From: a virus
DNA: 49,700 nucleotides
Reading direction: 5' to 3' (one strand)
Virus record (IMG/VR): IMGVR_UViG_3300048597_000670
Location: 1-49,700 of that record
A program made the position numbers and the translations under genes. Position 1 is the first letter of the stretch; each line of letters begins with the position of its first letter. Of the stretch, positions 2,722-34,287 are shown piece after piece. Below the pieces are notes generated by a model. It did not search any database, had not been told where the DNA came from, and saw only the letters and a list, made by a program, of their open reading frames with translations.

Positions 2722-3396
2722 TCACTCCGCTGCGATGATGGCGGCGCCCTGATTGGCGGCCGCGGGAAGGTAAGGGCCGCCCCATTGATCGGCCATGGCG
2801 TGCGCAATGCCGGGAAAGAAGCGGCTGCGCTCCTTGCTGCGGTTGGCGCTACGCGACATGCGATGAACGCGAGACCACGCTTTGTGCGCAGTGGTGCCGC
2901 GCTCAGGCGGCGTCAGCCGATTGGTCGGCGTCAGCTTCGGGAGGCCCTTGAGGTAGAGGCCGGTAGCCTTGAATTCCGGGTCACCGAACCACCATGGCTG
3001 AACGATCTGCGCGGGCGGCTGATAGCCGGCGATTCGCGCCTTGGCATGCTTGTGCATCACCGGGTTCTCGGCTGCGATGCGGGGAATTTCGGCGTTCCAT
3101 AATGTCGAGAAGAGCGCCGCGCCGGCGTCGAGTTCTGCCCACATCTCAGTGCGGGTCCTGCCGGGTGGGGCGGTATGCAGCCAGCGCACGCCGCTATTGC
3201 AGAGGCGCGTGCATGGAGGGTGCGCGACCATCAGCAGATCCCATCCGTCATTCAGAATGTCGCGCACATCGCCTGTGATGTGGCGGTTGCTGCCATCCTC
3301 GGCAGGCAGCAGATCGCAGGACCAGGCATCATGTCCCCGCGCCAGAAAGGCCCGCCGCACGATCCCCGAAAATTCGCAGGCGATCAGGATGCGCAT
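2722..3396 (-). CDS. Short C5-cytosine-methyltransferase-like protein (PPC motif)
   Basis: A 224-residue protein with a Rossmann-type start: MRILIACEFSGIVRRAF resembles motif I of C5 methyltransferases, and AHPPCTRLCNSG at about 58-69 resembles the catalytic Pro-Cys motif IV. It is shorter than typical C5 methyltransferases and I see no clear target-recognition domain. It may be a divergent DNA-modifying enzyme or a binding protein derived from one. The start at 3396 overlaps the end of the ASCH gene by 13 bases and leads on to the Acb2-like gene two bases later. Many temperate phages carry this type among accessory genes. Confidence 0.65.
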   Translation of the reverse strand: MRILIACEFSGIVRRAFLARGHDAWSCDLLPAEDGSNRHITGDVRDILNDGWDLLMVAHPPCTRLCNSGVRWLHTAPPGRTRTEMWAELDAGAALFSTLWNAEIPRIAAENPVMHKHAKARIAGYQPPAQIVQPWWFGDPEFKATGLYLKGLPKLTPTNRLTPPERGTTAHKAWSRVHRMSRSANRSKERSRFFPGIAHAMADQWGGPYLPAAANQGAAIIAAE

Positions 3397-3884
3397 GTGG
3401 CCTCGTGCTGGGGGAGGTCGCGGGGCCAGTCCCAAAAGCCCTGCGCGCCGCGGCACGGCACGGCCGGGTCGAAATCGCGCCAGTCGGTCAGGGGCCAGCC
3501 ATAGTTGGCGTGCTCGTCGCGGTCGGAATCGTTGATGCCGTCGCCGGTTTGCGGCATCCCGGGGAGGCGCGGCGTCTTCGTGGGTTCACCGAGAATCGCA
3601 GTCCCGAGTCCGTGGCCAAGGGCGAGACCAATCTCGTCGCGCAGGACGCGCTCGAGCATGGGCAGCGCGATGTCTCGCGTAAGCCCGGTCTGCCAGTGAT
3701 TTTCCGAATGCAGCTGCGCGAGGATTCCCTTCACCTCAGCCTTGCGCACCGGCCGGACTCCGGCATGGATGACGATGCGCTGCCCGCGCAGGCTGCGCGG
3801 CGCAGGCCAGCCTCTGAACTCGTAGGGCTTCGCGCCGATTGCAATCAGCGAGGCCCATGGCTGCCAGATGGTGAGGGCCTTCAT
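3384..3884 (-). CDS. ASCH domain protein
   Basis: A 166-residue protein. The N-terminus MKALTIWQPWASLIAIGAK followed by YEFRGWPAP is the classical ASCH opening (tIwqPWAslI..G.K..E.R.w). ASCH domains have a PUA-like beta-barrel fold thought to bind RNA or modified nucleotides. The centre runs through IVIHAGVRP and a GLGTAILGE strand typical of the barrel. It overlaps the DUF5131 gene upstream by four bases (ATGA) and the methyltransferase-like gene downstream. Precise substrate unknown. Confidence 0.8.
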   Translation of the reverse strand: MKALTIWQPWASLIAIGAKPYEFRGWPAPRSLRGQRIVIHAGVRPVRKAEVKGILAQLHSENHWQTGLTRDIALPMLERVLRDEIGLALGHGLGTAILGEPTKTPRLPGMPQTGDGINDSDRDEHANYGWPLTDWRDFDPAVPCRGAQGFWDWPRDLPQHEATCAS

Positions 3885-7698: not shown

Positions 7699-8043
7699 CT
7701 ACGGGAAGATGTAGGCGACCCGGCAGGCCATGCGCGGGTTTGCTCCCTTGATTGTGTCAGGGCAGGCCGCCGTCGTTTCCACAGTCGAGCGCGCTGGGAG
7801 ATCTTCGATCGACGCCGCGGCTTCCGAGAAGGGGCCGGCGTCGGTCGAGCAGATGCATTCAATCTGGAGGGATTTCAGGCTGCGATCGGTTTCGTTCCGC
7901 GCGGCGACAACAGCATGAAGCGCGCCGTAGTCATTGATGTAGGTGCGGGTTGAGACGATTGTTGCTGCAGCCTTGGGAGAATTGCCGGTCTCGCCGCAGC
8001 TTGCGAGCGATGCCGCGACGAAAAGCCACCCGGCGGTCCGCAT
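7699..8043 (-). CDS. Small prophage lipoprotein
   Basis: A 114-residue protein with a lipoprotein signal: MRTAGWLFVAASLASCGETG has a short basic n-region, a hydrophobic core and a lipobox LASC with the lipidated Cys at 16. The mature part of about 100 residues contains four further Cys (ECIC, CPD, MAC), probably two disulphides in the periplasm. The ATG at 8043 overlaps the stop of the WYL-protein gene (TGATG); a GTG one codon earlier is possible. As the last gene of the repressor operon it is probably expressed in the lysogen. Surface exclusion of related phages is a reasonable but untested guess. Confidence 0.65.
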   Translation of the reverse strand: MRTAGWLFVAASLASCGETGNSPKAAATIVSTRTYINDYGALHAVVAARNETDRSLKSLQIECICSTDAGPFSEAAASIEDLPARSTVETTAACPDTIKGANPRMACRVAYIFP

Positions 8044-8780
8044 CACGATGCAGTCCGCCGAGACTGGATCACTCGCATAAGATCAACATAGGCGATCTGC
8101 TCTTCAAATGGCATCTCGTCGTCGGCTTCAATCAGGCGCCGCATCGCGCGCTCGAGGCGCGCCCGCCGCGCACTGTCGGACGTAGCGCGCATGGCCGACC
8201 GCTCGAGCTGGTCATCGTCGGGCGCTAGGCGCGAGATGCTGCGAGCGGCGGCTACCAGGTCGATCTTGGACGGGTCAGGGGCGACTTCCGCAGCCTCCGC
8301 AACCATATGAAGCATAACTTCCATTTCATCTGCGTGTAGTCTGCCATCGGCCTTCGCAAGATGCGCGAGGATGTTCAGCTCATCGCGCACGGTCGCGATA
8401 ACCGCTCGCGTAGCGTCTTGGCTGGATTCCACCAGCCCCAGAGCACGTAACCAACCGGCAGGATCGTCGGGGCATTCGCCTGACGATAGGTCTACAAGCC
8501 GCACGATCTTGACCGCGCGGAACTCGCGTAGCGCCCGGCGAAGATGGCAGAAGCCGACGAAGGCCACATCGCCGCCAACTTCCCATACACGCCGCAATGC
8601 CACAGCGCGCGCGGTAACCCTATCGGGCGTCTCGTACTCGAGAAAAACGCAGGCCGGAACGCAGAGCGCGGCCTCGTCGGGGGGCGGTGGCGCATCGTCG
8701 AGCGCGTCGTCATCCTGCTTGAGGCCAAGGGCCGCAAGCCGGGCCGCCAGATACGGGGAAAGCGAAACCGATACCGACAT
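8043..8780 (-). CDS. WYL-domain protein with TerB-like C-terminal region
   Basis: A 245-residue protein. Residues about 45-105 fit a WYL domain: a strand FLEYETPD, then VGFCHLRRALREFRAVKIVRLVDL, which matches the WYL core pattern (CHLR...R.FRldRI). From about 130 a TerB-like helical domain follows, with AHLAKADGRLHADEMEVM, the acidic helix pair typical of tellurite-resistance B. WYL domains sense nucleic acid or nucleotide ligands and are frequent in prokaryotic defence loci. The gene lies 21 bases after the repressor and overlaps the lipoprotein gene, so it is probably expressed in lysogeny. Domain calls are by pattern, without a search. Confidence 0.7.
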   Translation of the reverse strand: MSVSVSLSPYLAARLAALGLKQDDDALDDAPPPPDEAALCVPACVFLEYETPDRVTARAVALRRVWEVGGDVAFVGFCHLRRALREFRAVKIVRLVDLSSGECPDDPAGWLRALGLVESSQDATRAVIATVRDELNILAHLAKADGRLHADEMEVMLHMVAEAAEVAPDPSKIDLVAAARSISRLAPDDDQLERSAMRATSDSARRARLERAMRRLIEADDEMPFEEQIAYVDLMRVIQSRRTAS

Positions 8781-8801
8781 GCTGAACCCCCTGTATGGTG
8801 A

Positions 8802-9542
8802 CTACCGCCTTGGGCTGCGATCGCGAAAGTCGCCGGTGACTAAGCCTTCGATGCGAACCTCGGCCTCCTCGTCATCCGGCTTGATGCCGTCATGGTAAGG
8901 AATGGGCTCGGCCCATTTCGGGTTGGTCGAACGGGCCCATAGCTCGATCTTGCCATCCTTGGTGTAGCGGATCTCCTTGAGGGTCCGCTCCAGCAACATT
9001 CCGCCGTCACGGCGCCGCAGAACTTCGACGTGATCGCCCTCGACCGGCTGATAGCCGCGAATGGCGAAGATCGACACCACGCGAACATAGGACCCATCGG
9101 GGTAAACTTCGTTCATGCTGTCGCCGACGACGTGATCAACCCACTGGACGTTGGACGGCCAGTTGGGAGAGGACCGAAGCGGGGAAAGTTCAGGTTCGAC
9201 CTGTCGCAACTCATCGACCTCGCGCCAAACGCCCGCCGCCACGGAGTGTCGAACGACCAGCGGATACGGATCATAGTTGCGAAGCGGAATAGCCGCCGCC
9301 GCCGGTGCATCGCCCAGCGAATCCGTTTCTCCGGTGAGATACGCAACGGAACACTTCAGCGCTCGGGCCAGGTCAATCAGCGTGTCCTGGCGGGGGTTGG
9401 TCGCTTTGCCGGGGCGAAGGATATTCCGGATGGTGTCGGGCTTGAGACCATTCTCGCTGGCCGCCCGAAAGGGGTTCGTCTGTAGCGCTTTCATCCGCAA
9501 TCTGATGCGGTGTTGCAGCAGTGATTCGGGTTCGTCGGCCAT
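8802..9542 (-). CDS. CI-like phage repressor, HTH plus S24 (LexA-type) peptidase
   Basis: A repressor of about 246 residues. The N-terminal helix-turn-helix (about 8-70) includes FRAASENGLKPDTIRNIL and LARALKCSVAYLTGE. The C-terminal S24 peptidase domain has the nucleophile Ser in GDSMNEVYPDG and the general base Lys in ERTLKEI, so RecA-stimulated self-cleavage and SOS induction are expected. It should maintain lysogeny by binding the CGGGT-N4-ACCCG operators. The start is uncertain: ATGs at 9542, 9554 and 9578 are all in frame and none has a clear Shine-Dalgarno. It is followed by the WYL gene in the same operon. Confidence 0.9.
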   Translation of the reverse strand: MADEPESLLQHRIRLRMKALQTNPFRAASENGLKPDTIRNILRPGKATNPRQDTLIDLARALKCSVAYLTGETDSLGDAPAAAAIPLRNYDPYPLVVRHSVAAGVWREVDELRQVEPELSPLRSSPNWPSNVQWVDHVVGDSMNEVYPDGSYVRVVSIFAIRGYQPVEGDHVEVLRRRDGGMLLERTLKEIRYTKDGKIELWARSTNPKWAEPIPYHDGIKPDDEEAEVRIEGLVTGDFRDRSPRR

Positions 9543-9630: not shown

Positions 9631-9966
9631 ATGGCAACCAATGTCCTTCTCCCGGCGCTCCTAGCGCGCATCGACGAGTATCTCGCGCGGTCGGGACGCA
9701 AGGAGGGCGGCCTGTCCGATGCGCTGTTCGGTGAAGGCAAGAAGATCGCGCTGCTGCGGGCCTCGGGCGACGTGGTCACCAAGACCCTTGAAAAGGCTCA
9801 CGCGACGCTCGACCGGCTGTTTGCCGAATTGGATGCCGACGCCGCGATGCGGGCGGCGGCGGAGCGGGGCGGGGAGGGCGTCCATTCGGGAAACATGACG
9901 GCCGCCGGGCCCGAATGCGACCGCAATGGGGCGGCGCAATTGCGGCGGGTCGAGGGGGCGGCATGA
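9631..9966 (+). CDS. Cro-position small regulator candidate
   Basis: First gene of the rightward early operon, in the position of cro. It is a 111-residue protein whose first 65 residues (LLARIDEYLARSGRK, LSDALFGEGKKIALLRASGDVVTKTLEKAHATLDRLF) look like a compact helix-turn-helix of the type in short alphaproteobacterial phage regulators. The C-terminal third is Gly/Ala-rich and probably disordered. The ATG is preceded by no Shine-Dalgarno and lies about three bases after the predicted transcript start. Role as Cro is inferred from position and helical pattern. Confidence 0.65.
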   Translation: MATNVLLPALLARIDEYLARSGRKEGGLSDALFGEGKKIALLRASGDVVTKTLEKAHATLDRLFAELDADAAMRAAAERGGEGVHSGNMTAAGPECDRNGAAQLRRVEGAA

Positions 9967-10481
9967 GCGCGACCCTCGCCCTCGTCATCTTGTCCTTCGC
10001 CATCGTGCTGTGGTGGGGGATGGCATCGCGCGCGAGCAAGCGGCGCTGCCTCGAGATTTTCTGCGGCATGGAGAAGAGGTCATCTCACCTGGCTCATAAC
10101 CAGGAGACCGCCGGTTCGAATCCGGCTGCCGCTCCCAAATCCCAAGCGAAAGCGGTCGATGAAGGAAAGCCGGGCCGATTGGATGGCCTCAACGGTGGAC
10201 TGGAGTCCGTGAGTAGGCTCGCCGGCGGGCGGACGCCGGCTGCAACGTCTGAGACGATGGACGTGACAGGGCGGAGAGACGTCCACCCCGATTTGCCGTT
10301 AGCGGCATGCGAGACGAGGGGCGGAAACGGGAATGACTGCAGCGTCGGTAAACGCGGAGCATGGTCCCCCGAAGGCTGCGACGGCATCGCTGTAGGCAAA
10401 CGTCGGCCAGAACCTGGCGTGACGGGCGGAGAGAGTGCCGCAACCTTTATTGCGCGCGCGCGGCGGGCGGGGCTGCTGTGA
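9963..10481 (+). CDS. Doubtful ORF with N-terminal membrane segment; contains the tRNA gene
   Basis: An open frame of 172 codons that starts with ATGA overlap on the preceding gene and ends with a GTGA overlap on the following gene, which hints at real translation. Residues 3-18 (ATLALVILSFAIVLWW) form a good transmembrane helix. However, the frame runs straight through a complete tRNA gene (10062-10137), and the rest (10138-10477) is a Gly/Arg-rich sequence that resembles no protein I know. The membrane peptide may be real and the remainder accidental. I see no other gene in 10138-10477; there is a seven-base dyad TGGACGT/ACGTCCA at 10258-10285. Confidence 0.3.
   Translation: MSATLALVILSFAIVLWWGMASRASKRRCLEIFCGMEKRSSHLAHNQETAGSNPAAAPKSQAKAVDEGKPGRLDGLNGGLESVSRLAGGRTPAATSETMDVTGRRDVHPDLPLAACETRGGNGNDCSVGKRGAWSPEGCDGIAVGKRRPEPGVTGGESAATFIARARRAGLL
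10062..10137 (+). tRNA. tRNA-Met (anticodon CAU), initiator-like
   Basis: A full 76-base cloverleaf with encoded CCA. Acceptor 5' TGCGGCA pairs with 3' TGCCGCT except position 1:72 (T against T). D-stem GAGA/TCTC, anticodon stem CCTGG/CCAGG with loop CTCATAA, variable loop AGACC, T-stem GCCGG/CCGGC with loop TTCGAAT. The missing 1:72 pair, the A11:U24 pair and the G30:C40 and G31:C39 pairs are features of bacterial initiator tRNA; the third of the usual three G:C pairs (29:41) is T:A here. A tRNA-Ile2 reading (lysidine-modified CAU) is less likely because of the 1:72 mismatch. Confidence 0.88.
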
Positions 10482-10996
10482 GCTTCAAGCCCTACAAGGC
10501 CCCGGCGGGCTACGCGACGACCAAGGAGGTCGTGCAGCGTTTCATCGACGATGCCGGCGGGGTGAAGCCCGCGGCCTTCGTGCTCGAGCGTAAGGAGCGC
10601 GCGGTCTACGATTACTGCGATCGCGACATCGACACGCAGATCACCTTCGACCAGGTCCGCCGCCTGACCGTCGCGACGCACAGCACCGTAGCGGCCGAAG
10701 CGCTCGCCGCCGATGCGGGCGGCGTCTTCGTGCCCGGCGAGGTGGACGATGCCGCCTTCGCCGAACTGGCCGCCCAGGTCTGCGGCGAGCACGGGCAATT
10801 CTCCAGCGAACTCTGCCGCGCCTTCGGCGACGGCCAAATCGACGATGCCGAGAAGCCGGCCATGCGCCGCGAACTCGACGATCTCATCCACGCCGCGGTC
10901 GCCGCGCGCGTGCGGCTGGATGCCGCCAGCGAATCGCCGGGTGCGGCCCGTGCGCCCGCGCCGCCACGGCGCTCAAACCCGAGAAGGAAGCGCTGA
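10478..10996 (+). CDS. Phage CII-like regulatory protein
   Basis: A 172-residue protein starting at GTG 10478, overlapping the preceding stop (GTGA). The first 75 residues fit the phage regulatory CII-type family: a helical N-terminus (KEVVQRFIDDAGGVKPAAFVL), a YDYCDRDIDTQITFDQVRRLT recognition region and a LAADAGGVFVP segment. A second helical half (AELAAQVCGEHGQF to DDLIHAAVAARVRL) has the pattern ADGQIDDAEKPAMRRELDDLI. Such proteins act as transcriptional switches early in infection. Lies immediately upstream of the next gene with no gap. Confidence 0.6.
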   Translation: MSFKPYKAPAGYATTKEVVQRFIDDAGGVKPAAFVLERKERAVYDYCDRDIDTQITFDQVRRLTVATHSTVAAEALAADAGGVFVPGEVDDAAFAELAAQVCGEHGQFSSELCRAFGDGQIDDAEKPAMRRELDDLIHAAVAARVRLDAASESPGAARAPAPPRRSNPRRKR

Positions 10997-12721: not shown

Positions 12722-13128
12722 AGGCGCTCGCCGCCTATGCCGGGGCCGAACGGCGCACGCCGCCGGTCCCGCGCCCTGCCGCCGCCGAGGCCAGCGCCCA
12801 GGCCATGGCGCGGCTGCGCGCCGGAATCATCGTAGAGACCTGTTTCCAGCTGGCGGCGCGCGAGGCGCGGCTGCCGGTCGCCGAGCTGCGCGTGCCCAAA
12901 TCGAAGGCCGTGGCGCCCTGGCGCTTCGCGGCGCTTTTCCTCGCCGCGGAGGCGGCGGGCCTGACGCGCTATCAGATAGCGCTGCATACCGGCATGGACC
13001 GCACGGCAATCGCGCACGGGATCAAGCGGTGCCGCGCGTTGATGGAAGGAGGTGGGGCCTATTTCCTGAGCGTCGATGCGCTGCGCGGCGAGATCGTTGC
13101 GCTGTACGGGGCGGAGGCGTCGCGATGA
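12718..13128 (+). CDS. DnaA domain IV-like DNA-binding protein
   Basis: A 136-residue protein. Residues about 62-112 match the DnaA C-terminal helix-turn-helix: ALFLAAEAAGLTRYQIALHTG followed by MDRTAIAHGIKRCRALM, where DnaA has the signature DHSTVLHAxRxx. Domain IV of DnaA recognises DnaA boxes; the AAA+ ATPase part is missing here. The protein could bind the phage origin or compete with host DnaA. It overlaps both neighbours by four bases in the replication operon. Confidence 0.75.
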   Translation: MKALAAYAGAERRTPPVPRPAAAEASAQAMARLRAGIIVETCFQLAAREARLPVAELRVPKSKAVAPWRFAALFLAAEAAGLTRYQIALHTGMDRTAIAHGIKRCRALMEGGGAYFLSVDALRGEIVALYGAEASR

Positions 13129-13346
13129 CCGCGGCCCAACGCGCGGCCCTCGACTGGCTCGCCAAGCACAACGGCGACGGCACGCTGGACCGGAACGGCA
13201 TCGTCCTCGCCGCCGGCGAGACGGCGCCCTTCACGCGCGCGACGTGGAATGGTCTGCGCGATCTGGGGCGCGTCGAATTCTACCGCCTGTCGCCCAAAGG
13301 GTATGGCCGCATCCGACTGACGGCCGTCGCGCGGTGCGGCGCATGA
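13125..13346 (+). CDS. Small winged-helix-like protein, 73 residues
   Basis: Starts MTAAQRAALDWLAKHNGDG and continues through FTRATWNGLRDLGRVEFYRLSPKGYGRIRLT. The order helix-helix-helix-hairpin fits a small winged helix, as in phage regulators that share the pattern LxxLGxVEfy....GYGRIRlT. ATGA overlaps at both ends tie it to the DnaA-like and MT-A70 genes. Not assignable to a named family. Confidence 0.6.
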   Translation: MTAAQRAALDWLAKHNGDGTLDRNGIVLAAGETAPFTRATWNGLRDLGRVEFYRLSPKGYGRIRLTAVARCGA

Positions 13347-13939
13347 TGCTCCCCGCCGGCCCCTTCTCCGTCATCTACGCCGACCCTGCCTGGTCGTTCG
13401 CGACCTGGTCGCATCGGGGGCAGGGCAAGGGCGCATCGCAGCATTATGACGTGATGGATCTGGCCGCCATGGCGGCGCTGCCGGTGGCGGCGTGTGCGGC
13501 GGACGATGCGGCGCTGTTCATGTGGGTGGTGCAGCCGATGCTGCCCGAGGCGCTGCGGTTGATCGAGGCCTGGGGCTTCACCTTCAAGACCGTTGCCTAT
13601 GTGTGGATCAAGATCAAAGGCGTCGCGGAGCGGCAGGGACAGGATCGCCTCTTCTATGCCGGCGAGGATGTCCGCCTCGGGCTCGGCTATCACACCCGGA
13701 GCGGTGCGGAGCAGTGCTGGCTGGCGACGCGCGGCAAGGGGTATGACCGGCTGTCCCAGAGCGAGGCGCAGGTCGTCTTCGCGCCGCTGCGCGAGCACAG
13801 CCGCAAGCCCGACGACATCGCCGACAGCATCGTCCGCCTGACCGGCGATGTGCCGCGTCTGGAGATGTTTGCGCGGACCGAGCGCCCGGGCTGGTCGGTC
13901 TGGGGCAATGAATCCACCAAGTTTGGGGCCGTCGCATGA
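13343..13939 (+). CDS. MT-A70 family adenine methyltransferase
   Basis: A 198-residue protein. The catalytic motif IV is DPAW at residues 14-17, a variant of the DPPW of MT-A70 enzymes, within FSVIYADPAWSF. Other family blocks are ALFMWVVQPMLPEALRLIEAWGF, VWIKIKG, a GYHTRSGAEQCWLATRGK segment and HSRKPDDI, followed by LEMFARTERPGWSVWGNE. It should transfer a methyl group from SAM to adenine N6 in DNA. ATGA coupling to the GcrA-like gene downstream is notable because GcrA responds to adenine methylation in its hosts. Confidence 0.9.
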   Translation: MMLPAGPFSVIYADPAWSFATWSHRGQGKGASQHYDVMDLAAMAALPVAACAADDAALFMWVVQPMLPEALRLIEAWGFTFKTVAYVWIKIKGVAERQGQDRLFYAGEDVRLGLGYHTRSGAEQCWLATRGKGYDRLSQSEAQVVFAPLREHSRKPDDIADSIVRLTGDVPRLEMFARTERPGWSVWGNESTKFGAVA

Positions 13940-25364: not shown

Positions 25365-26006
25365 ATGCTCACCGAGCGCATCTACCCGGGTGAAGGCCTC
25401 CTGTCGGAAGCCCCGGGCACTCTCAGCCGCGACACGGTCACGATCGCGGCGTCCCAGACCCTACTGGCGGGCCAGCCCCTCGGCAAGGTGGCGACCGCGG
25501 CCACCGTCAGCCGCGCCGCCGCCGCCGGCAATACCGGCAACGGCGTCCTGACCTTGGCGAATCCCGCTTTCGGCGGCGCCGTCAAGCCCGGCCTCTACAA
25601 GGTTACGTGCATCGAGCCCGCCAGCAATGGCGGGACCTTCTCGGTCGAAGATCCCGAGGGCGCCGTCGTCGGTATCGCCAAGGTCGGGGTCGCCTTCGAC
25701 GGCGAGATCAAGTTCACGATCGCCGACGACACCGACTTCGCCGCCGGCGACATCATCAATGTCACGGTCGTGAACGTGGCCTGGCAGCACAAGGCCTATG
25801 ACCCGGCCGCGACGGACGGGGCGCAGGTCTTCGCCGGCATCCTCTACGACGCCGTGACGACGGGGTCGGGCGAGACGCTCGCCGCGACGGCGTTCGTGCG
25901 GCAGCTCGAGTGGCGCGACAACGCCATCGTGTGGGGCGCGCTGACCTCCGACCAGAAAGCTGCCGCCCGGGTCCAGGCCAGGGCGCGCGGCATCATCATC
26001 CGCTAA
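25365..26006 (+). CDS. Head decoration protein (gpD-like) with internal insertion
   Basis: A 213-residue protein. It opens LTERIYPGEGLLSEAPGTLSRDTVTI, the common start of alphaproteobacterial gpD-type capsid stabilisers, and ends AGILYDAVTTGSGETLAAT and RQLEWRDNAIVWG. Lambda gpD is about 110 residues; here a Gly/Val-rich, beta-predicted segment (about 50-135, including GNGVLTLANPAF and FTIADDTDFAAGDI) is inserted in the middle. It is the gene just before the major capsid, as in lambda. It should stabilise the expanded shell. Confidence 0.85.
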   Translation: MLTERIYPGEGLLSEAPGTLSRDTVTIAASQTLLAGQPLGKVATAATVSRAAAAGNTGNGVLTLANPAFGGAVKPGLYKVTCIEPASNGGTFSVEDPEGAVVGIAKVGVAFDGEIKFTIADDTDFAAGDIINVTVVNVAWQHKAYDPAATDGAQVFAGILYDAVTTGSGETLAATAFVRQLEWRDNAIVWGALTSDQKAAARVQARARGIIIR

Positions 26007-26067
26007 CGCGGCCGTTCAGAAACCACGCCGGCGCAGCTGCGTCCGGATCACGAAAAGGAGTCCAGCC

Positions 26068-27072
26068 ATGCTGGCCGATGTGTTCAATTCCCGGCTGTTC
26101 GAGACGACGCAGCTCACCGCGGCGATCAACAACCAGCCCTTCCTGCCCAATTACCTGGGCGAGCTCGGCATCTTCGAGGAAAGCGGCGTCGAGACCACGA
26201 CCGTCTTCGTCGAGGTCGAGAACGAGACGCTGAGCTTGGTGCCCGCCACGCCGCGCGGGTCGCCGGGCACGCCCGGCAGCTCGACCAAGCGGGACGGCGT
26301 GGCCTTTGCGGCGCCCCGCCTGATGGTCAGCGACGCGCTGCTCGCCGACGAGGTGCAGAACGTGCGGGCGTTCGGGTCGGAAGACCAGCTGCTCGGCGTC
26401 GAGCAGAAGCGCGACCAGAAGCTCGCGAAGGCGGCGCGCGACCTCGACCTGACGCTGGAATATCACCGCCTCGGCGCGATCCAGGGCGTGGTGCTCGATG
26501 CGTCCGGCTCGACGATCTACGACCTCTATTCCAAGTTCGGCCTCAGCGCACATGCGCCGATCTCGCTGGAACTGGATCAGGCCGCCGGCACGGCCGACAT
26601 CCGCGCCCGCATCTCGGCCGTGCGCCGCGCGATCTTCGCGGCGCTCGGCGGGCATCGCGGCATGCTGAAGGGCGTAGTGTCGCTTTGCGGCGACGATCTG
26701 TGGGACGCCCTCACCAATCACGACGAGCTGCGCGCCACCTATCTCAACCAGGCCGCGGCGAACGACCTGCGCGAGGGCGATACGCTGGAATCCTTCACCT
26801 TCGGCGGCTTCCGGTGGGTGAACTATCAGGGCTATGGCGACGTGAAGATCGCCGCTGCCGAGTGCCGCTTCGTGCCGATCGGCGTGCCGGAGCTGTTCAA
26901 GACCACCTTCGTGCCGGCGGACTATATGGAGGCGGTCAACACGATCGGCCTGCCGCGCTACACGAAGGCGGAGCCGATGCGGATGAACCGCGGTATCGAG
27001 CTGGAGAGCCAGTCGAACCCGATCACCATCTGCACGCGGCCCACGGCCCTCATCAAGGGCACGCTGACCTAA
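26068..27072 (+). CDS. Major capsid protein (gpE-like)
   Basis: A 334-residue HK97-fold capsid of the lambda gpE family. Conserved elements are FLPNYLGELGIFEESGVETTT near the N-terminus, VSDALLADEVQNVRAFG, LDLTLEYHRLGAIQGVV, HRGMLKGVVSLCGDDLWD, FTFGGFRWVNYQGYGD and the C-terminal ADYMEAVNTIGLPRYTKAEP. It is preceded by AAAGGAG at good spacing. Hundreds of copies form the head. Confidence 0.95.
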   Translation: MLADVFNSRLFETTQLTAAINNQPFLPNYLGELGIFEESGVETTTVFVEVENETLSLVPATPRGSPGTPGSSTKRDGVAFAAPRLMVSDALLADEVQNVRAFGSEDQLLGVEQKRDQKLAKAARDLDLTLEYHRLGAIQGVVLDASGSTIYDLYSKFGLSAHAPISLELDQAAGTADIRARISAVRRAIFAALGGHRGMLKGVVSLCGDDLWDALTNHDELRATYLNQAAANDLREGDTLESFTFGGFRWVNYQGYGDVKIAAAECRFVPIGVPELFKTTFVPADYMEAVNTIGLPRYTKAEPMRMNRGIELESQSNPITICTRPTALIKGTLT

Positions 27073-27096
27073 GCGGTCGGCGCAGGGTCTCCCACC

Positions 27097-27429
27097 ATGG
27101 CGGGGTTCGCAGACCGGATGGCGTCGCTCGACGACGCCATCGAAGATGGGCTGACGGATCCCGCCATGTATTTCGCGCAGGGTGCGGGGGAAGGCGTTTC
27201 GATCGGCGTCATGCTGGAGCGGCCGACCAATGAAGTGCGGATGGGCGAGACGGGCTTCGTGCTGGAGCAGCCCATGATGGAAATCCGGCATTCGGCCGTG
27301 CCGGGCCTTGCTGCCAACGATGTCGTCGCAGCGGACGGGCGGCGGTGGCGCGTCGAGGGTGCGCCCGAGCGGCCGGGCGACGGGGCGTGGTGGCGGGCCA
27401 TCGTCGCCGATATCGGGGCGGCGTCGTGA
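27097..27429 (+). CDS. Head-tail joining protein, gpFII-like
   Basis: A 110-residue protein in the gpFII position. It has a helical start (FADRMASLDDAIEDGLTDPAMY), then a beta-rich body with VSIGVMLERP and VAADGRRWRVEGAPERPGDGAWWRA, in line with the small beta-barrel joiners that attach the tail to the head. Its last four bases overlap the next gene (GTGA). Family call is by position and fold pattern, not motif identity. Confidence 0.65.
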   Translation: MAGFADRMASLDDAIEDGLTDPAMYFAQGAGEGVSIGVMLERPTNEVRMGETGFVLEQPMMEIRHSAVPGLAANDVVAADGRRWRVEGAPERPGDGAWWRAIVADIGAAS

Positions 27430-28145
27430 GCAATTTCGACCTGCAGCTCCATGCGGCGCTCAGCGGCACGTTCGAGGAAGAGATCGGCTCGGCGCAGGCC
27501 TGGCTGGAGCAGGCCGTGACGCGCGCGCTGGACGATGCGTCGGAGAATTTCCTGACGAAGCTGCGCGAGGACGTTCGGCAGTCGGGATTGAAGGGCGCCG
27601 AGCGGCTGCGCACGACGTGGCGCAAGCGCCGCTATCCCGAGCGCGACTTCTCGCTCGATCCCGCCGCCTTTGTCTATTCGAAAATGCCGCAGGTGGTGGC
27701 AGCGTTCGAAAAGGGCGCCACCGTCACATCGCCGGACGGCAAGTGGCTGACCATCCCCAACCCGACGGTCTGGCCGCGGCGGTTCCGCCGCCTGCGGGGC
27801 GATGCCAGCATGTTGGCGACGGCCGAGGCTCGGTTCGGCAAGCTGCGTTTCGTCTACCGCGCGGGTCATCAAGTCGCCTATCTGGTGGCCGAATTGCGGG
27901 CGTCGCAGAAATCGCCCGGGAAATTCCGCAAGGCGTCCGCCCGCGCGATGAAGACCGGCACGGACCTCTCCACGGTCATCGTCTTCTTCCTCGTGCGCCA
28001 GGCACGGTTGCCGCGGCTGCTGAAGGGCGCAACGATTCGCGAGCGGGCGAAGCGCGACTTCCCCGCCGATGTCGGGCGGCGCCTGCCGCAGATCCTCAAC
28101 AGCACGCCGCGGCCGCGCGTCATTGCCGGAAGCTATCGCACGTGA
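27426..28145 (+). CDS. Phage minor structural protein (DUF6441-like)
   Basis: A 239-residue basic protein, GTG start at 27426. It has a helical N-terminus (EEEIGSAQAWLEQAVTRALDD), TWRKRRYPERDFSLDPAAFVYSKMPQVV, a LTIPNPTVWPRR strand and a C-terminal LVRQARLPRLLKGATI. This layout is that of the DUF6441 type, found between the joiner and the tail terminator in lambda-like phages, and probably corresponds to the gpZ-type tail completion role. Assignment by family memory and position. Confidence 0.65.
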   Translation: MSNFDLQLHAALSGTFEEEIGSAQAWLEQAVTRALDDASENFLTKLREDVRQSGLKGAERLRTTWRKRRYPERDFSLDPAAFVYSKMPQVVAAFEKGATVTSPDGKWLTIPNPTVWPRRFRRLRGDASMLATAEARFGKLRFVYRAGHQVAYLVAELRASQKSPGKFRKASARAMKTGTDLSTVIVFFLVRQARLPRLLKGATIRERAKRDFPADVGRRLPQILNSTPRPRVIAGSYRT

Positions 28146-28627
28146 CCGCGCCGATCGATGCCGGCGAGGCCGCCCTGAAGGCGGCGCTCGTGGCCCGGCT
28201 TGTAACGGCGGAGCTCATCACGTCCGAGTCGCAGATCGGCGACAAGCCGATCAATCCGCTGCCGTCGATCGCCGTACCCTCGGGCGCGCGGCTGGCGCTG
28301 GCGCTGGTGCGCGTCGGGCCCCGGGTCCGGCGCGTCTATATCGGCGGCGGCGGGCCGGTCTATGCGCTCGACCTGCTGTTCAACATCGAATTCGCCGCCG
28401 CCGATCCCGACAAGGCGAAGCGCGAGGGACTGGAAGGCGCGGTGCAGGACATCGTCGCCGCCGTGCTGCGCGACGATCCCACCCTTGGCGGCGCCGTGCA
28501 GCGCATCGACCTGGAAGACGCGCCGCAGCTCAGCGACGCGCCGCCGGCGGCCATCATCACCGCCATCCCGCTCGCCCTGACCGTGACGGCCGGCGACCCG
28601 TTGGGGCGCCTCGCGCCCGCCCTTTGA
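28142..28627 (+). CDS. Tail terminator-like protein (gpU position)
   Basis: A 161-residue protein, GTG start at 28142 overlapping the previous stop. It has a helix (AALKAALVARLVTAELITSES) followed by alternating strands (RLALALVRVGPRVRR, PVYALDLLFNIEFAA) and a helix with GAVQDIVAAVLRDDP. This alpha/beta layout fits the tail terminator family that caps the tail tube. It is just upstream of the tail tube gene, as in lambda U-V. Confidence 0.7.
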   Translation: MTAPIDAGEAALKAALVARLVTAELITSESQIGDKPINPLPSIAVPSGARLALALVRVGPRVRRVYIGGGGPVYALDLLFNIEFAAADPDKAKREGLEGAVQDIVAAVLRDDPTLGGAVQRIDLEDAPQLSDAPPAAIITAIPLALTVTAGDPLGRLAPAL

Positions 28628-28639
28628 AGGAGACGACTC

Positions 28640-29617
28640 ATGCCCAGCGACATTTTCTACGGCGCCGAATCGGAGGTTCGGTTCGGCCGCATGGCGGACG
28701 CCACGACGGACCCGACGACCTGGTATCGGTTGCCGTTCGTGTCGGCGACGTTCAACGGCCAGCGCGAACAGCGCAAGCGGCCGCTGCTCAACACCGCCCG
28801 CCACAACGTGCTCGATCCGCAGGCGACGCAGCAGGGGCTCTATCGACTCAGCGGCGACATCGTGGTGCCTGCCGACACGCGGGAATTCGCGCGCTTCCTG
28901 TGGCTGCTGTTCGGCAATCCGGCGACGGCGGCGGTCGCGGGCGACGAGGACCCCGCCCTCTTCACCCATGCCTGGGCGAGCGGCGTCAAGACGACGAGCC
29001 TGTTCGCCGCGCAGGTGCGCCTCGCTTCCAACAAGGTGCGGATCTATCGCGGCTGCACCGGCGGCTCGGTCGGGTTCGACATCACGGGTGAGAAGACCAA
29101 GGATTTCGACGTGACGCTCGGCTTCCGGGGCATGCGCGAGGAAGACGTTGCGGACTTCGTCGGCACGGCGCCGTCCAATCTGGTGCCCGATGCGCCGCTG
29201 CTGCGCACCGTGGTCAAGATCGACGGCACGGACGCGGCGAGCCGCGCGCTGAGCGCGCGCTGGAGCTGGGACCGGGCGTTGCAGGAAGACATCTTCCTGT
29301 CGGTCGATCCGAATATCTCGGGGCACTCGCCAAAGGAAACCGTGCTGCAGGGCCAGGCGACGTTCCGCGCGGTCGGGGCGATCTATGACGATCTGGAAGC
29401 CGCCGACGACAGCTTCGACCTGACGCTGGGCGGCATCGGGGCCGTCTCGGGCCATGCGATCGACTTCCGCCACGAGGCGGTGAAGTTCTCGCGCCCGCCC
29501 GTCGCCTTCAACGGTCCGGCCGAGGTCGAGCGCAGCTGGTCGTGGGAGGGCGCGCAGACCGCCAGCCTGCCGGCGGCGAAGGTGACCGTCACGAACGACG
29601 TCACGTCGTACACGTAA
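28640..29617 (+). CDS. Tail tube (major tail) protein
   Basis: A 325-residue protein with GGAG upstream. It opens DIFYGAESEVRFGRMAD and carries TWYRLPFVSATFNGQREQRKRP, typical of tail tube proteins in this phage group (WxxLPf...s....r). A duplicated beta-sandwich appears likely: DIVVPADTREFARFLWLLFG and RIYRGCTGGSVGFDITGEKT recur in style in the second half (AVGAIYDDLEAADDSFDLTLGG). It should form stacked hexamers of the non-contractile tail. Confidence 0.85.
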   Translation: MPSDIFYGAESEVRFGRMADATTDPTTWYRLPFVSATFNGQREQRKRPLLNTARHNVLDPQATQQGLYRLSGDIVVPADTREFARFLWLLFGNPATAAVAGDEDPALFTHAWASGVKTTSLFAAQVRLASNKVRIYRGCTGGSVGFDITGEKTKDFDVTLGFRGMREEDVADFVGTAPSNLVPDAPLLRTVVKIDGTDAASRALSARWSWDRALQEDIFLSVDPNISGHSPKETVLQGQATFRAVGAIYDDLEAADDSFDLTLGGIGAVSGHAIDFRHEAVKFSRPPVAFNGPAEVERSWSWEGAQTASLPAAKVTVTNDVTSYT

Positions 29618-29627
29618 GGCCTCGTCC

Positions 29628-30143
29628 ATGCTGATCCTGAAGACCCTCCGCGACCCGGTCGTGGAGGATTTCACCGATGCGGGATTCCCCGGCGTGAAAG
29701 TGACGCTGCGCCGCCTGCTGCATGCCGAGATCGAGGAGGCGCAGGCGGCGGCCGCCAAGGTGGTGCGGCTGCTGTCGGACGGCGAGGCGGCGCTGGCGCC
29801 TTATGGCCTCGACGGGCGCGACAGCGCGGGGCAACGGATGAACGCCGCCGACCCGGCGCAGATGTTCCGCCTGGGCGTCACGGTCGCGGCGGTCGAGCAG
29901 GCGCTGCGGGCCTTCGCGGCTTGGGAGGGGGTGGCGCTGGCGGACGGGTCGCCCGCGCCGATCAATCGCGCGACGCTGACGGTCGCGATGCTGGACAATC
30001 GGTTCTGCCGCCGCGCGCTGTCCGCGATGGAGCAGGCGGCGCGCCTGCTGGAGGTCGAAAAAAAAGCCTCGCCGCCCTCGCCGGATGGTTCTTTGGCGGC
30101 GGCGACGGCGGGGGCCTCGCCTATTGCGGACGCTGCCGCGTGA
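29628..30143 (+). CDS. Tail assembly chaperone, gpG-like
   Basis: A 171-residue protein in the gpG position upstream of the tape measure. It opens MLILKTLRDPVVEDFTDAGFPG and has LRRLLHAEIEEAQAAAAKVV and VEQALRAFAAWEGVALADG. Near its end is a slippery run of eight A (30058-30065) that allows a -1 shift into the downstream frame, giving the longer G-T fusion typical of this family. The zero-frame product ends SPIADAAA. Chaperones of this kind bind the tape measure and the tail tube protein. Confidence 0.8.
   Translation: MLILKTLRDPVVEDFTDAGFPGVKVTLRRLLHAEIEEAQAAAAKVVRLLSDGEAALAPYGLDGRDSAGQRMNAADPAQMFRLGVTVAAVEQALRAFAAWEGVALADGSPAPINRATLTVAMLDNRFCRRALSAMEQAARLLEVEKKASPPSPDGSLAAATAGASPIADAAA
30058..30105 (+). 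promoter_or_regulatory. Programmed -1 frameshift site
   Basis: The zero-frame codons GAA AAA AAA GCC contain the heptamer A AAA AAA (30059-30065), followed three bases later by an eight-base stem TCGCCGCC (30069-30076) / GGCGGCGA (30098-30105). A -1 slip enters the frame that stays open to 30436. This is the expected arrangement for tail chaperone frameshifting. Confidence 0.75.
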
Positions 30144-30436
30144 GCGGTGCGGCATGTGCGTCGGGCGGACGCGGCGCGACCGGGCGGCTGTGCCCGCAGG
30201 TCGAGCATGCGCCCGTGACGCTGGAAGGGTTCAGCGTGCTGCGGTTCGTGAAGCGCTTTGCGGCCTGGGAGGGAGGGGGATTCGCGCCGTTGCGGATCGA
30301 CCGGGCGCAGCTGTTGCGCCGCCTGCCGCCGGGCGCGGATGCGGAGGCGGCAGAGGATCTCGTCGATGCGTTCGAGGCGGCGGCGGTCGCCGCGATGACC
30401 GAACGCCGCAAGACGACATCGACGAAGGCCCACTGA
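30140..30436 (+). CDS. Tail assembly chaperone T-type extension
   Basis: Frame reached by the -1 shift at the A8 run. With the slip, the product continues from 30065 as SLAALAGWFFGGGDGG and ends at 30436, giving about 269 residues in total. It also could be started alone at GTG 30140, which overlaps the gpG stop (GTGA). Visible segments are CPQVEHAPVTLEGFSVLRFVKRFAAW and IDRAQLLRRLPP, then DLVDAFEAAAVAAM. The coordinates given cover the part unique to this frame. The fusion is the more likely main form. Confidence 0.7.
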   Translation: MSGAACASGGRGATGRLCPQVEHAPVTLEGFSVLRFVKRFAAWEGGGFAPLRIDRAQLLRRLPPGADAEAAEDLVDAFEAAAVAAMTERRKTTSTKAH

Positions 30437-30437
30437 C

Positions 30438-32987
30438 GTGACCGAGAAACCCGGCGTCGGCATCCGTCTGTTCATGGCGGGCGGCGATCTCGTGCGCTCG
30501 ACTTTCGCGCAGATCGGCGATGCCGGAAAGCGGATGTGGGCCGAACTCGCACTCGGCAGCGAAAAGGCCAATCCGGCGCTCAAGGGGCTCAGCCAGGCGA
30601 GCAAGGAAGCGCAGGCCTATGTCGGCAATCTGGCGGCCGAAGCCGGCCCGGCCGGGCGGATCCTGAGCGCGATGGGTCCCGCGGGGATCGCCGCCGCCGC
30701 GGGCATTGGCCTGATGGCCATAGCGCTGCGCACGCTGACAGTTTCCGCCTTCGAGAGCATCGAGCGCCTTGACGATCTGAGCGATGCGGCGGCGGGGCTG
30801 GATATCGGCATCGACATGGCGGTGCGCTATGGGCTCGCGCTCGAGGCCGCCGGCGGCAAGCAGGACAACCTTATTGCCGGCCTCGGCAGCTTCCAGTCCA
30901 AGGCCGGCGAATTCCTGTCCGGTCTTTCAGGCGAAGACGGACCTTTCGGCAAAGCGCTGGGTCTGTTGGGCATCACGGCAAGCTTCAAGGAAGCGCAGTC
31001 GCTTGAAGAGCAGTTGCTTCTCGTTGCCGATGCGATCGCTCTGGTGGAGGACAGTGCCGAGCGTGCCGCCCTCGCTGAGAAACTTGGCCTGGCCAAACTG
31101 CTGCCACTTCTTGAGCGCGGCAGCGGGGAGGTCCGAGAGTTAACCGGTCAGTTTGATCAAATGGCGCGCGCCACGGCGGACGCAGCGCGTGAGGCTGATC
31201 CTCTTGCGGCTCGTCTTGCCACTGCAAACGCGCGGATGACGACCGCGGCGAACATTATCTCCGTGCGCCTGGGACCTGCACTGGTGGGCCTAAAGGAAGC
31301 TATGGCCGGTGTCCTGGAGGGCCTTAGCCTGCTCGTTGGCGGCGGCGCTAACCTTGAGGATGGCCTTGCGCGATCGCTTGCGGCGGTGCCGCCACCTGAC
31401 GAAGCCGTCGTGGCCGCGCTGGAGGCCAGAAACAGAATAGCGGAAGAGCAAGGTCGGTTGGAGAGTACCCTCGCCGATCTTCGTCAGCAGCAAGAGCGGA
31501 GTTGGAATGGCGAAGTCTTCGACGAGCGTATTGCCCTCATGGAGGTTACGCTCGAGAAGACCAATGAACTGCGGCGTAGGTCTGAACAGGAATTGGCCGC
31601 TGCCGAAGCGGCTGCGGCACGTCGCAGATCTGCGCCTCCCTTTGTTGCCGCCGATCCTGCCGATCTCGAGGACAAGCCGCGGAGTGAAACTGCCGAGGCG
31701 CTTCGCGCCGCCGCGGCGGCCGCCGATCGGGCCGCCGCAGATGCCGCCGCAGATGCAGCGCGGGCGACGGATGCCGCAGCCCGCAGTCTTGATTCCGCCC
31801 TCGAGAAATCGCGCGGCGCGTTGGGCGCTTATCTCGCAGAGCTCGATGAGCTGGCCGAGGCGGCCGCCCTGCTGCCTGGTCGCCAGGACGATATCAGGAC
31901 CGCGACGGCCGCGGCGGGGCAAGCCTATCTCGAGGCCGCGGCGAAGGCCGCAGGACTCAGCGACGGGTTGAAGGCGCTGGAAGCGCGCGATCCCGCCGCG
32001 ATCGCGACCTATGCGGACCATCTGGCCGATCTGGCGGCGCAGCGCGACAGCTATCCCGGCGGTTCGGCGGCGTTCACCGCGGCGCTGGAGGCGGAGACGC
32101 GCGCCTTCCTCGATGCCGCCGCCGGGGCCGACCAGGCCGCCAAGGCGCGGGCGGCGTTCGACACGCTGATGGGGCAGCTGGCGACGCCGCAGGAGCGGGC
32201 GGGGGAGGAGCGCGCCGAGGCGCTGAAGATCCTGAACGACCCCGATCTGGTGCTGTCGGCGGACGCCTATGCCGAGGCCCTGCAGCGCATCGAGGACCGC
32301 TACAACGGCGTCGCCGCGGCGCAGGGCCGGGCAGCGCAGTCCGGCGAGGGCTGGATGACCATCATCGAGGGGATCAGCGAGAAGGGGATCGAACTCGAAG
32401 ATATCCTCATCAAGCTGGGGCAGCGCATCCTCGAATTGACCGCCATGGACTTTCTGGGCGGCAAGAACAAGGGCGACTTCCTGGGCGCGCTGGGCGGCGC
32501 GCTGGGCGACCTGTTCGGGTTCGGGGGCGGCAGCGGCGGCGGTTCGGGTGGGGGGTATAGTCTCCCCGGCTGGCTGACCGGCGGCGTTCACCATGCCGGC
32601 TATGGACCGGGCGACCGCATCCAGAGCAGCCTGTTGCCATCGTGGATCTGGGACAGCGCGCCGCGCCACCATGACGGCTATCTCGCCCCAAATGAACGCG
32701 CCGCCATCCTGCGCAATGACGAGAGCGTGCTGACGCCCGGCCAGATGCGCACGCTCGCCAGCATGGGTGGGTCAGGTGACCGGGGCGCGGTTGCGCCCCC
32801 GCGCGAACGCCTGCTGATCACCCTGCGCGACGAGAGCGGCGGTCGGTTGCAGGCCGAGCCCGGGGAGGGGCCGGACGGGATGCAGCTGGACGTATTGGTG
32901 CGCGACACCACGCGCAGCAGCCTGGCGACCGGCGCGTTCGACGCGCAGATGGCGCAGCGCTATGGCCTGAAGCCCCGGACGACCTGA
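30438..32987 (+). CDS. Tape measure protein
   Basis: An 849-residue tail-length ruler, GTG start at 30438. It is long, helical and Ala-rich with coiled-coil stretches (about 300-520 contains ELRRRSEQELAAAEAAAARR and the repeated AAADAAADAARA). A hydrophobic segment ILSAMGPAGIAAAAGIGLMAIAL lies at about 75-97. The C-terminal part has a Gly-rich region (GGGSGGGSGGGY) then HHAGYGPGDRI and HDGYLAPNERAAIL, as in tape measures with a lambda-H-type end. At about 1.5 angstrom per residue it predicts a tail of about 125 nm. Base composition from about 30900 to 31750 is less GC-rich than its flanks. Confidence 0.92.
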   Translation: MTEKPGVGIRLFMAGGDLVRSTFAQIGDAGKRMWAELALGSEKANPALKGLSQASKEAQAYVGNLAAEAGPAGRILSAMGPAGIAAAAGIGLMAIALRTLTVSAFESIERLDDLSDAAAGLDIGIDMAVRYGLALEAAGGKQDNLIAGLGSFQSKAGEFLSGLSGEDGPFGKALGLLGITASFKEAQSLEEQLLLVADAIALVEDSAERAALAEKLGLAKLLPLLERGSGEVRELTGQFDQMARATADAAREADPLAARLATANARMTTAANIISVRLGPALVGLKEAMAGVLEGLSLLVGGGANLEDGLARSLAAVPPPDEAVVAALEARNRIAEEQGRLESTLADLRQQQERSWNGEVFDERIALMEVTLEKTNELRRRSEQELAAAEAAAARRRSAPPFVAADPADLEDKPRSETAEALRAAAAAADRAAADAAADAARATDAAARSLDSALEKSRGALGAYLAELDELAEAAALLPGRQDDIRTATAAAGQAYLEAAAKAAGLSDGLKALEARDPAAIATYADHLADLAAQRDSYPGGSAAFTAALEAETRAFLDAAAGADQAAKARAAFDTLMGQLATPQERAGEERAEALKILNDPDLVLSADAYAEALQRIEDRYNGVAAAQGRAAQSGEGWMTIIEGISEKGIELEDILIKLGQRILELTAMDFLGGKNKGDFLGALGGALGDLFGFGGGSGGGSGGGYSLPGWLTGGVHHAGYGPGDRIQSSLLPSWIWDSAPRHHDGYLAPNERAAILRNDESVLTPGQMRTLASMGGSGDRGAVAPPRERLLITLRDESGGRLQAEPGEGPDGMQLDVLVRDTTRSSLATGAFDAQMAQRYGLKPRTT

Positions 32988-33364
32988 TGCCCGCGCCCGA
33001 GAAGCCACCTGAATATGACGGCCTGCCCGAATGGGATTCCGATATCCCGCCGATCCGCGTCGCCGGGTTCGGCCGCAAGCCCCAGACCTCCGGCACGCGC
33101 TTCGAGGTCGAGCGGGGCCCCGCCAAACAGCGCGGCGGCAGCACCAACCCGGTCTGGGACAACCAGTTCACGATCATCGGCGACGCGGCCGGCATCGACG
33201 CGTTCTGGACGTTCTATTTCCAACAGCAGGGCGCGCGCTTCGCGATGGTCGATCCGCGCCGCAACGCCTGGGGCGCGTTCCGCTTCGTCATCGGCAAGGA
33301 GCCGAGCGAGGGCATCGACCCGCCGGGCTTCACCGTGACCTTCACACTGGAGCGCGTCGGCTGA
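32987..33364 (+). CDS. Minor tail protein (gpM-position)
   Basis: A 125-residue protein, start overlapping the tape measure stop (TGATG). Segments IPPIRVAGFGRKPQTSGTRFEVERG and WDNQFTIIGDAAGIDAFWTFYF resemble lambda gpM-like distal tail proteins, and PPGFTVTFTLERVG closes it. It lies between the tape measure and a DUF1833 gene, which matches the lambda M-L order. Role is assigned from order and length. Confidence 0.7.
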   Translation: MPAPEKPPEYDGLPEWDSDIPPIRVAGFGRKPQTSGTRFEVERGPAKQRGGSTNPVWDNQFTIIGDAAGIDAFWTFYFQQQGARFAMVDPRRNAWGAFRFVIGKEPSEGIDPPGFTVTFTLERVG

Positions 33365-33822
33365 TGGTCAGCGCCGCCTACAAGCAGGCGTTCTATGCCG
33401 CCGAAACCGACGACGACACGCTGACCTGCGTCCTGATCGAGCATGCCGCACTCAGCGAGCCGATCCGCGTGGTGCACGGCTTCGACAACATCGTGCATCT
33501 GGGAGAGGTCTACAGCGCCGCCGCCTTCCGCGCGACGCTGCCGGAGCAGGACGACAAGATGTCGCCGCGCTGCACGATCGTGGTGGAGAACATCGATCGC
33601 GAGATGGTGCCGGCGGTGCGCGCCGCCAGCGGCGTTCCCACCATGACGATTTTCGAGGTGCTGCAGAGCGACCCCGACACGATCGAGGACATCTATCCCG
33701 AGATGGACGTGCTGGAGGTCGAGTACGATTCGGCGCAGATCTCGATCGACGCCGGCTATCCCGATCTGGACACCCAGGCGTTCGGCGGCGTCTTCACCCT
33801 GTCGCAGTGGAGCGCGCTGTGA
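33364..33822 (+). CDS. DUF1833 family minor tail protein (gpL-position)
   Basis: A 152-residue protein. It begins MVSAAYKQAFYAAETDDDTLTC and continues with IEHAALSEPIRVVHGFDNIVHLG, YSAAAFRATLPEQDDKMSPRCTIVVENID and VLEVEYDSAQISIDAGYPDLD. This set of blocks is characteristic of DUF1833, a tail-tip family in lambda-like phages. The start shares one base with the stop of the gene before it and the end overlaps the NlpC/P60 gene (GTGA). Confidence 0.85.
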   Translation: MVSAAYKQAFYAAETDDDTLTCVLIEHAALSEPIRVVHGFDNIVHLGEVYSAAAFRATLPEQDDKMSPRCTIVVENIDREMVPAVRAASGVPTMTIFEVLQSDPDTIEDIYPEMDVLEVEYDSAQISIDAGYPDLDTQAFGGVFTLSQWSAL

Positions 33823-34286
33823 GTTTGCTCCAGCTCTACCCCGAACTCACCACCTGGCTGGCGGTGCCGTATCGCCAGCCCGCGAACGGCGTCCTCTTCT
33901 CCGACCTCGACGGCTGGGATTGCTGGGGCCTCGTCATCTATCTCGGGCGCACCGTGTTCGGCGTGGAGCATGGCGACTTTGCCGGCATGATCGCCCGAGC
34001 GACCGAGGGACGCGACAGCCTGGCGAATGGCGAAGTCGCCGCGATGATCCGGGACGCGCTGCCGCTCTATCGCGCGGTGCCGCCGGCGGCGGGGCGGATC
34101 GCCCTGTTCCGGCACGGCTCGGATTTCCTGCATGTCGGGCTGATGTTGACGCCGACAATCGCCATCCACGCCCTGATGCCCGGCGCAGACGGGCGCGGCG
34201 GCGGCACCTTCACCATCGACCTGACGAACGACCGGTGGGGCAAGCCGCACCGCTTCGTCGGCTGTTACGAGCGCGTCGCGGCCTAA
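33819..34286 (+). CDS. NlpC/P60 tail peptidase (gpK-like)
   Basis: A 155-residue cysteine peptidase of the NlpC/P60 family, gpK-like. The catalytic Cys35 is in GWDCWGLV, with His105 in FLHVGLML and His117 in AIHALMPG as the likely remaining residues. It should cleave peptidoglycan cross-links at the tail tip during DNA injection. GTG start at 33819. It lies one base before the tip protein gene. Confidence 0.88.
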   Translation: MSLLQLYPELTTWLAVPYRQPANGVLFSDLDGWDCWGLVIYLGRTVFGVEHGDFAGMIARATEGRDSLANGEVAAMIRDALPLYRAVPPAAGRIALFRHGSDFLHVGLMLTPTIAIHALMPGADGRGGGTFTIDLTNDRWGKPHRFVGCYERVAA

Positions 34287-34287
34287 A

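Follow-up and report, generated by a model that had tools for sequence, protein, structure and literature searches.

An initiator-type tRNA(CAU) and an adjacent structured RNA in the early region of a temperate phage

Genomic organization of the locus

The window analysed here is the whole stretch of 49,700 nucleotides (49.7 kb) from the IMG/VR virus record IMGVR_UViG_3300048597_000670. The phage is temperate, with an integrase, a CI-like repressor, and a CII-like activator. The integrase gene lies at 1-1119, 9 kb from the tRNA. The CI-like repressor gene is located at 8840-9542 on the minus strand (phrog_4, E 1.5e-16), and all of the following features are on the plus strand. A short gene in the cro position (9631-9966, 111 aa, from the ORF list) has no match in PHROG, and overlaps the next ORF by ATGA. 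This next ORF is short and membrane-protein-like; alignment with the tRNA-less relative L042 shows its coding start (MSATLALVILSFAIVL...) at 9963-10061. It is followed by the tRNA, a structured RNA, and the gene of the CII-like activator (10478-10996; phrog_101, E 1.3e-17), whose GTG start overlaps the upstream stop (GTGA). An earlier sequence-only reading placed the tRNA just after the regulator gene, which is nearly right: the 9631-9966 gene and the membrane-protein-like ORF lie between them. Three DNA methyltransferase genes were also found in the window, at 2722-3456, 13076-13939, and 45973-47886 (phrog_757, phrog_359, and phrog_13671).

The tRNA and the structured RNA replace the 3' part of the ORF that starts at 9963. 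The frame stays open to 10481; third codon positions have a G+C content of 0.94 upstream of the tRNA versus 0.62-0.69 in the tRNA and RNA stretches after it, and there is no coding signal beyond the tRNA, up to 10481. In the alignment with L042, a close relative with 94% identity in CII, the middle ORF has 62 aa and there is no tRNA. The net gain in the window relative to L042 is about 330 bp. Since both the tRNA and the structured RNA fall within these 330 bp, their arrival or loss as one cassette is suggested. L042 may have lost the cassette rather than never having had one.

Two alphaproteobacterial phages, Mesorhizobium phage vB_MseS-P1 and Rhizobium phage RR1-A, also have an initiator-like tRNA flanked by a phrog_4 repressor and a phrog_101 CII. 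Both of these tRNAs contain U29:A41/GC/GC and G11:C24. The tRNAs of the two rhizobial phages lie at 3008-3082 of locus L038 (inside the annotated ORF gp13) and at 2990-3065 of locus L039.

Identification of the tRNA

ARAGORN identified a single tRNA in the window, at 10062-10137 on the plus strand with anticodon CAU. The Rfam tRNA model RF00005 matched it with 61.1 bits (E 6.8e-11, gathering score 29), which confirmed the CAU tRNA with encoded CCA proposed from the sequence. Column parsing showed an acceptor stem with U1·U72, G2:C71, C3:G70, and G4:C69, followed by U8 and G9. The D-stem is GAGA/UCUC, with A11:U24, and base 26 is A. The anticodon stem CCUGG/CCAGG gives U29:A41, G30:C40, and G31:C39; the anticodon loop is the canonical CUCAUAA, the T-loop is UUCGAAU, and the 3' end consists of C73 and the encoded CCA. 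The tRNA is thus real and intact. The bases listed in the sequence-only reading (an unpaired 1:72 as U1·U72, A11:U24, U29:A41, G30:C40, and G31:C39) were all correct, while C73, A26, and the downstream RNA had been overlooked. The Rfam model RF04354 (Plastid-ycf2 5'UTR) also matched the antisense strand of the tRNA (10063-10134, minus strand), with 36 bits against a gathering score of 65.7; this model possibly resembles an antisense tRNA.

Classification of the tRNA

Cellular and phage tRNA-CAU sequences were sampled with one loose pattern on phage and bacterial/archaeal collections, and the figures hold among the matches listed. The 103 distinct cellular tRNA-CAU among these matches comprise 43 with a 1:72 mismatch, all of which carry R11:Y24, 54 elongator-like sequences with neither trait, and 6 with a paired 1:72 yet R11:Y24 (Fisher p 7e-23 for the association of the two traits). 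Both traits are present in the window tRNA. The sequence-only reading had also pointed to U1·U72 and U29:A41 as deviations from the usual initiator. The deviations are present, and their weight was over-read: among the matches listed, the mismatches of the 43 cellular initiators are C·A (23), C·U (11), U·U (7), A·A (1), and C·C (1), and the full three G:C pairs are missing in 8 of the 43, 7 of these at 29:41, where the first pair is lost. Two Saccharibacteria among the matches listed share the U29:A41/GC/GC stem. Base 73 is A in 43/43 cellular and 23/23 phage initiator-type tRNAs and C in none (among the matches listed). As judged from sequence, U1·U72 and U29:A41 are within cellular initiator variation, and C73 is outside it.

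A column classifier was evaluated by leave-one-out, with 44 cellular initiators and 54 cellular elongator/Ile2 tRNA-CAU as training sets. These classes were defined by 1:72 and 11:24; therefore, a second classifier was built without positions 1, 72, 11, 24, 29-31, and 39-41. With all columns, the window tRNA scored +27.1 bits, compared with -32.1 for the highest cellular elongator and +49.7 for the lowest cellular initiator, which supports the initiator-type class proposed earlier. Without the hallmark columns, it scored +8.8, with cellular elongators at -7.1 or below and cellular initiators at +22.7 or above. Its score is below every cellular initiator and inside the range of the phage initiator-type tRNAs (median +36.7, lowest +8.7). 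Along with C73, the C6:G67 pair and A26 count against the initiator class. One viral elongator-like tRNA scores as high as +30.8, so the classifier separates cellular tRNAs more cleanly than phage ones.

A very unlikely alternative is that drift gave an elongator tRNA-Met, or a tRNA-Ile2 modified with lysidine, its resemblance to initiators. In favour of this, C73, A26, and C6:G67 are atypical of initiators, and one of the three G:C pairs is lost. However, neither a 1:72 mismatch nor R11:Y24 occurs in any of the 54 cellular elongators/Ile2 among the matches listed, and the window tRNA stands 59 bits above the highest elongator, or 16 bits without the hallmark columns. The earlier reading had set classification as elongator Met or Ile2 against its own proposal; paired 1:72 and Y11:R24, which mark both of these classes, were looked for and are absent.

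The nearest relatives of the window tRNA are phage tRNAs (82%, L033), followed by cellular initiators (75%), and its D-stem GAGA/UCUC was seen in none of the cellular initiators examined. Both observations argue against a recently captured host gene of no use to the phage. The tRNA might otherwise be the remnant of an attP integration site, since tRNA genes often serve temperate phages as integration sites and this phage has an integrase; the attP remnant was rejected on the 9 kb distance from the integrase and the completeness of the tRNA. Taken together, a remnant or a captured gene is highly improbable.

By these measures, the window tRNA is initiator-like but divergent, as are the phage initiator-type tRNAs. 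It contains most features of a standard tRNAfMet: CAU within CUCAUAA, a non-Watson-Crick 1:72, G2:C71, C3:G70, and A11:U24. It keeps two of the three G:C pairs, and has no A73. The three G:C pairs are usual rather than defining, because 8/43 cellular and 18/23 phage initiator types among the matches listed are incomplete. The tRNA is better termed an initiator-type variant than a standard tRNAfMet, because it has C73 versus A73 in 43/43 cellular initiators (among the matches listed). Its 1:72 pair can be compared with the C·A of the E. coli initiator. G2:C71, C3:G70, and A11:U24 assist formylation, and the initiator determinants are described in PMC7949028. CCA is often gene-encoded in initiator tRNAs (PMC5143459). 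Charging or formylation may be poor, because C73, A26, and C6:G67 are atypical of initiators.

Phage initiator-type tRNAs

In an unselected sample, 23 of 95 phage tRNA-CAU among the matches listed are of the initiator type. Phage tRNAs of this type, with the 1:72 mismatch and R11:Y24, are known here from the Pseudomonas phages Haboob and VB_PaD_phPA-G, Rhizobium phage RR1-A, Mesorhizobium phage vB_MseS-P1, and many IMG/VR contigs. All three G:C pairs are kept in 5/23 phage initiator-type tRNAs versus 35/43 cellular ones (p 3e-6, among the matches listed), and the first pair is often lost, as in the window tRNA. The literature searched contained no statement of this frequent loss in phages. Two differences were found: nearly all other phage initiator-type tRNAs have A73, whereas the window tRNA has C73, and most of them are either solitary or part of a tRNA array, with no structured RNA beside them. 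The initiator is the most constrained tRNA, and its phage versions are natural variants with which one can readily test what features an initiator requires and whether phages protect initiation in the course of infection.

Structure of the adjacent RNA

Alignment of 22 members, RNAalifold, and a covariance model (R1) identified a structured RNA of about 150 nt at 10137-10290 on the plus strand, with four helices (P1-P4). P1 holds a CGAA/GAGUAG internal loop that is loop-E-like, and this strand pair fits the loop-E (bulged-G) consensus. P2 follows, P3 is formed by UGCAACGUC/GACGUGACA, and P4 is capped by a GAGAGA hexaloop. P4, the 3' hairpin (GUGACA-GGGCG-GAGAGA-CGUCC-ACC, 10263-10287, plus strand), was identified by pattern scans and a pairing test. 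RNAalifold predicted 22 pairs in the 22 full-length alignable members, 12 of them with compensatory changes; the alignment was built partly via a search for the hairpin and P1 pairing, so P4 and P1 are favoured by selection, and P2 and P3 are not. The window itself contributed a sequence to R1, which scored 117 bits at 10137-10290. Single-sequence folding energy gave no signal for 10138-10480 (z 0.5), and the structure is visible only by comparison. In the loci scanned, no Rfam 15 family matched this RNA (10137-10290 in the window) at or above its gathering score.

Two other readings of the hairpin were tried and rejected. A chance hairpin was rejected on pairing: 98/102 five-pair hairpins among the matches listed are fully paired, versus 27 expected with shuffled partners. 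A protein-coding reading of GUGACA...GAGAGA was rejected on the covarying stems and a fixed would-be third codon position; the differing frame in the window versus L498 also contradicts it. A second, weaker hairpin-like copy (GUGACGGGCGGAGAGAGUGCC, with GUGAC/GAGAGA) was found by a regular expression with pairing at 10419-10441 on the plus strand, 38 nt before the cII start. R1 does not match this copy, which may be due to chance or decay.

Distribution of the RNA and its 3' hairpin

The GUGACAGGGCGGAGAGACGUCC motif after the tRNA recurs in unrelated contigs. Hairpin patterns that fixed only GUGACAG, GAGAGA, and CAC gave at least 120 matches (loci L343-L577). Among the matches listed, the 102 distinct hairpins of the five-pair class show 26 stem combinations, and 104/110 of the four-pair class are fully paired, versus 64 expected with shuffled partners. 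For the 253 distinct hairpins among the matches listed, 16% lie 20-29 nt before a start codon preceded by a Shine-Dalgarno sequence, compared with 0.9% of random positions. A tRNA gene is present within 250 nt of 23 of these hairpins, most of which are 4-15 nt upstream of the gene in the same orientation. The 3' hairpin is thus widespread in phages and concentrated before start codons and tRNA genes. In isolated phages it is mostly unannotated. It follows the capsid gene in phiSHP3, precedes the holin and terminase genes in IME1369_02, is close to the repressor in mEp390, and lies within the tRNA array of Phaeobacter phage MD18. Upstream of the hairpin, a GAA...stem...AGUAGG arrangement is present in 31 members, and AGTAGG was found near hairpins 43 times upstream versus 6 downstream. 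The P3-P4 end of the RNA is also found alone. R1 gave nothing significant over 0.7 Mb of cellular loci, and literature searches on the hairpin found nothing relevant.

The link between the tRNA and the RNA rests on the window (10137-10290), L551 (7225-7404), and L498 (2931-3085); elsewhere the two are mostly apart. In L551 the RNA again directly follows an initiator-like tRNA, in the other genomic context of head genes. In L498 the RNA, and then a tRNA-CAU, lie upstream of a CII homologue. The L498 tRNA-CAU has C1·A72 but C11:G24, and an ORF with a protein-like C-terminal part is open through both RNAs (8010-8803, reverse strand coordinates). A general association between initiator-like tRNAs and the RNA was rejected, since R1 matched only the window in 100 sources chosen mainly for tRNA-CAU. 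Most phages with an initiator-type tRNA are without the structured RNA, and the pairing is not obligatory.

Proposed roles of the tRNA and the RNA

As a whole, the data are best explained if 10062-10137 encodes a functional-looking phage initiator-type tRNA, which would probably act as a back-up initiator through host enzymes. It would be released by host RNase P from the part of the early transcript that separates the cro-position gene from cII, charged by host MetRS, and formylated by host Fmt to fMet-tRNA. IF2 and the 30S subunit could then use it at ordinary AUG, GUG, and UUG starts. Such a tRNA may keep up the initiator supply in infection, for example when host tRNAfMet is depleted or cleaved. 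The earlier suggestion of a preference for GTG or leaderless starts is unsupported: ATG, GTG, and TTG are all read already by the host initiator, whose anticodon is likewise CAU. By a crude count, the 51 gene-like ORFs have 38 ATG, 9 GTG, and 4 TTG starts, and 35 of the 51 have a Shine-Dalgarno-like match.

A defence against VapC-like tRNA cleavage, in which the tRNA would replace the host initiator or serve as its decoy and the altered anticodon stem and C73 would make it a poor nuclease target, is conceivable and rather unlikely. Initiator tRNA is a substrate of VapC-type toxins, evasion of such nucleases has been suggested for phage tRNAs (PMC10264068), and the stem differs at 29:41. However, the anticodon loop has the canonical sequence CUCAUAA, U29:A41 is found in cells too, and according to PMC10264068 tRNAfMet, the target of VapC, is generally not encoded by phages. 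The back-up initiator is the preferred reading.

For the structured RNA, a tentative guess is a cis-acting co-transcriptional role, most likely antitermination-like or in processing. A transcription role is guessed because nut and put sites come to mind when an element lies between cro and cII or opens tRNA and late operons; a processing role is guessed because the linkers to tRNAs are short and A/U-rich. With moderate confidence, the tRNA is one half of a cassette. The other half would be a structured phage RNA, widespread and uncatalogued (about 150 nt, with a loop-E-like P1, P2, P3, and a GAGAGA-capped P4). Placed directly upstream of start codons and tRNA genes, it would belong to early, late, and tRNA operons in phages from several bacterial phyla, and would act in cis on transcription or on the processing of transcripts. 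If upheld, it would be a common phage RNA element without an Rfam entry, in a position suited to a general regulator of transcription or RNA processing. This RNA is the more surprising part of the locus, and merits its own study.

Comparison with known systems

GOLLD and ROOL are structured phage or prophage RNAs reported near tRNA genes. The adjacent RNA is likewise near a tRNA gene; it has about 150 nt, whereas GOLLD and ROOL have several hundred. Neither had an Rfam match in the loci scanned. The put RNA of phage HK022 mediates antitermination in cis through the zinc-binding domain of the RNA polymerase beta' subunit. Both put and the adjacent RNA are structured phage RNAs with adjacent hairpins, in an early operon near the immunity region. 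However, put has about 70 nt in two stem-loops (PMC9378689), compared with about 150 nt here. The stretch 26000-36000 of HK022, which may or may not include both put sites, contained no R1 match and no GUGACA/GAGAGA hairpin.

The bacterial initiator tRNAfMet and the window tRNA share the CAU anticodon, the CUCAUAA loop, a mismatched 1:72, G2:C71, C3:G70, A11:U24, G30:C40, G31:C39, and CCA. The window tRNA differs in having U29:A41 instead of G29:C41, C73 instead of A73, A26, and the GAGA/UCUC D-stem, and in being phage-borne.
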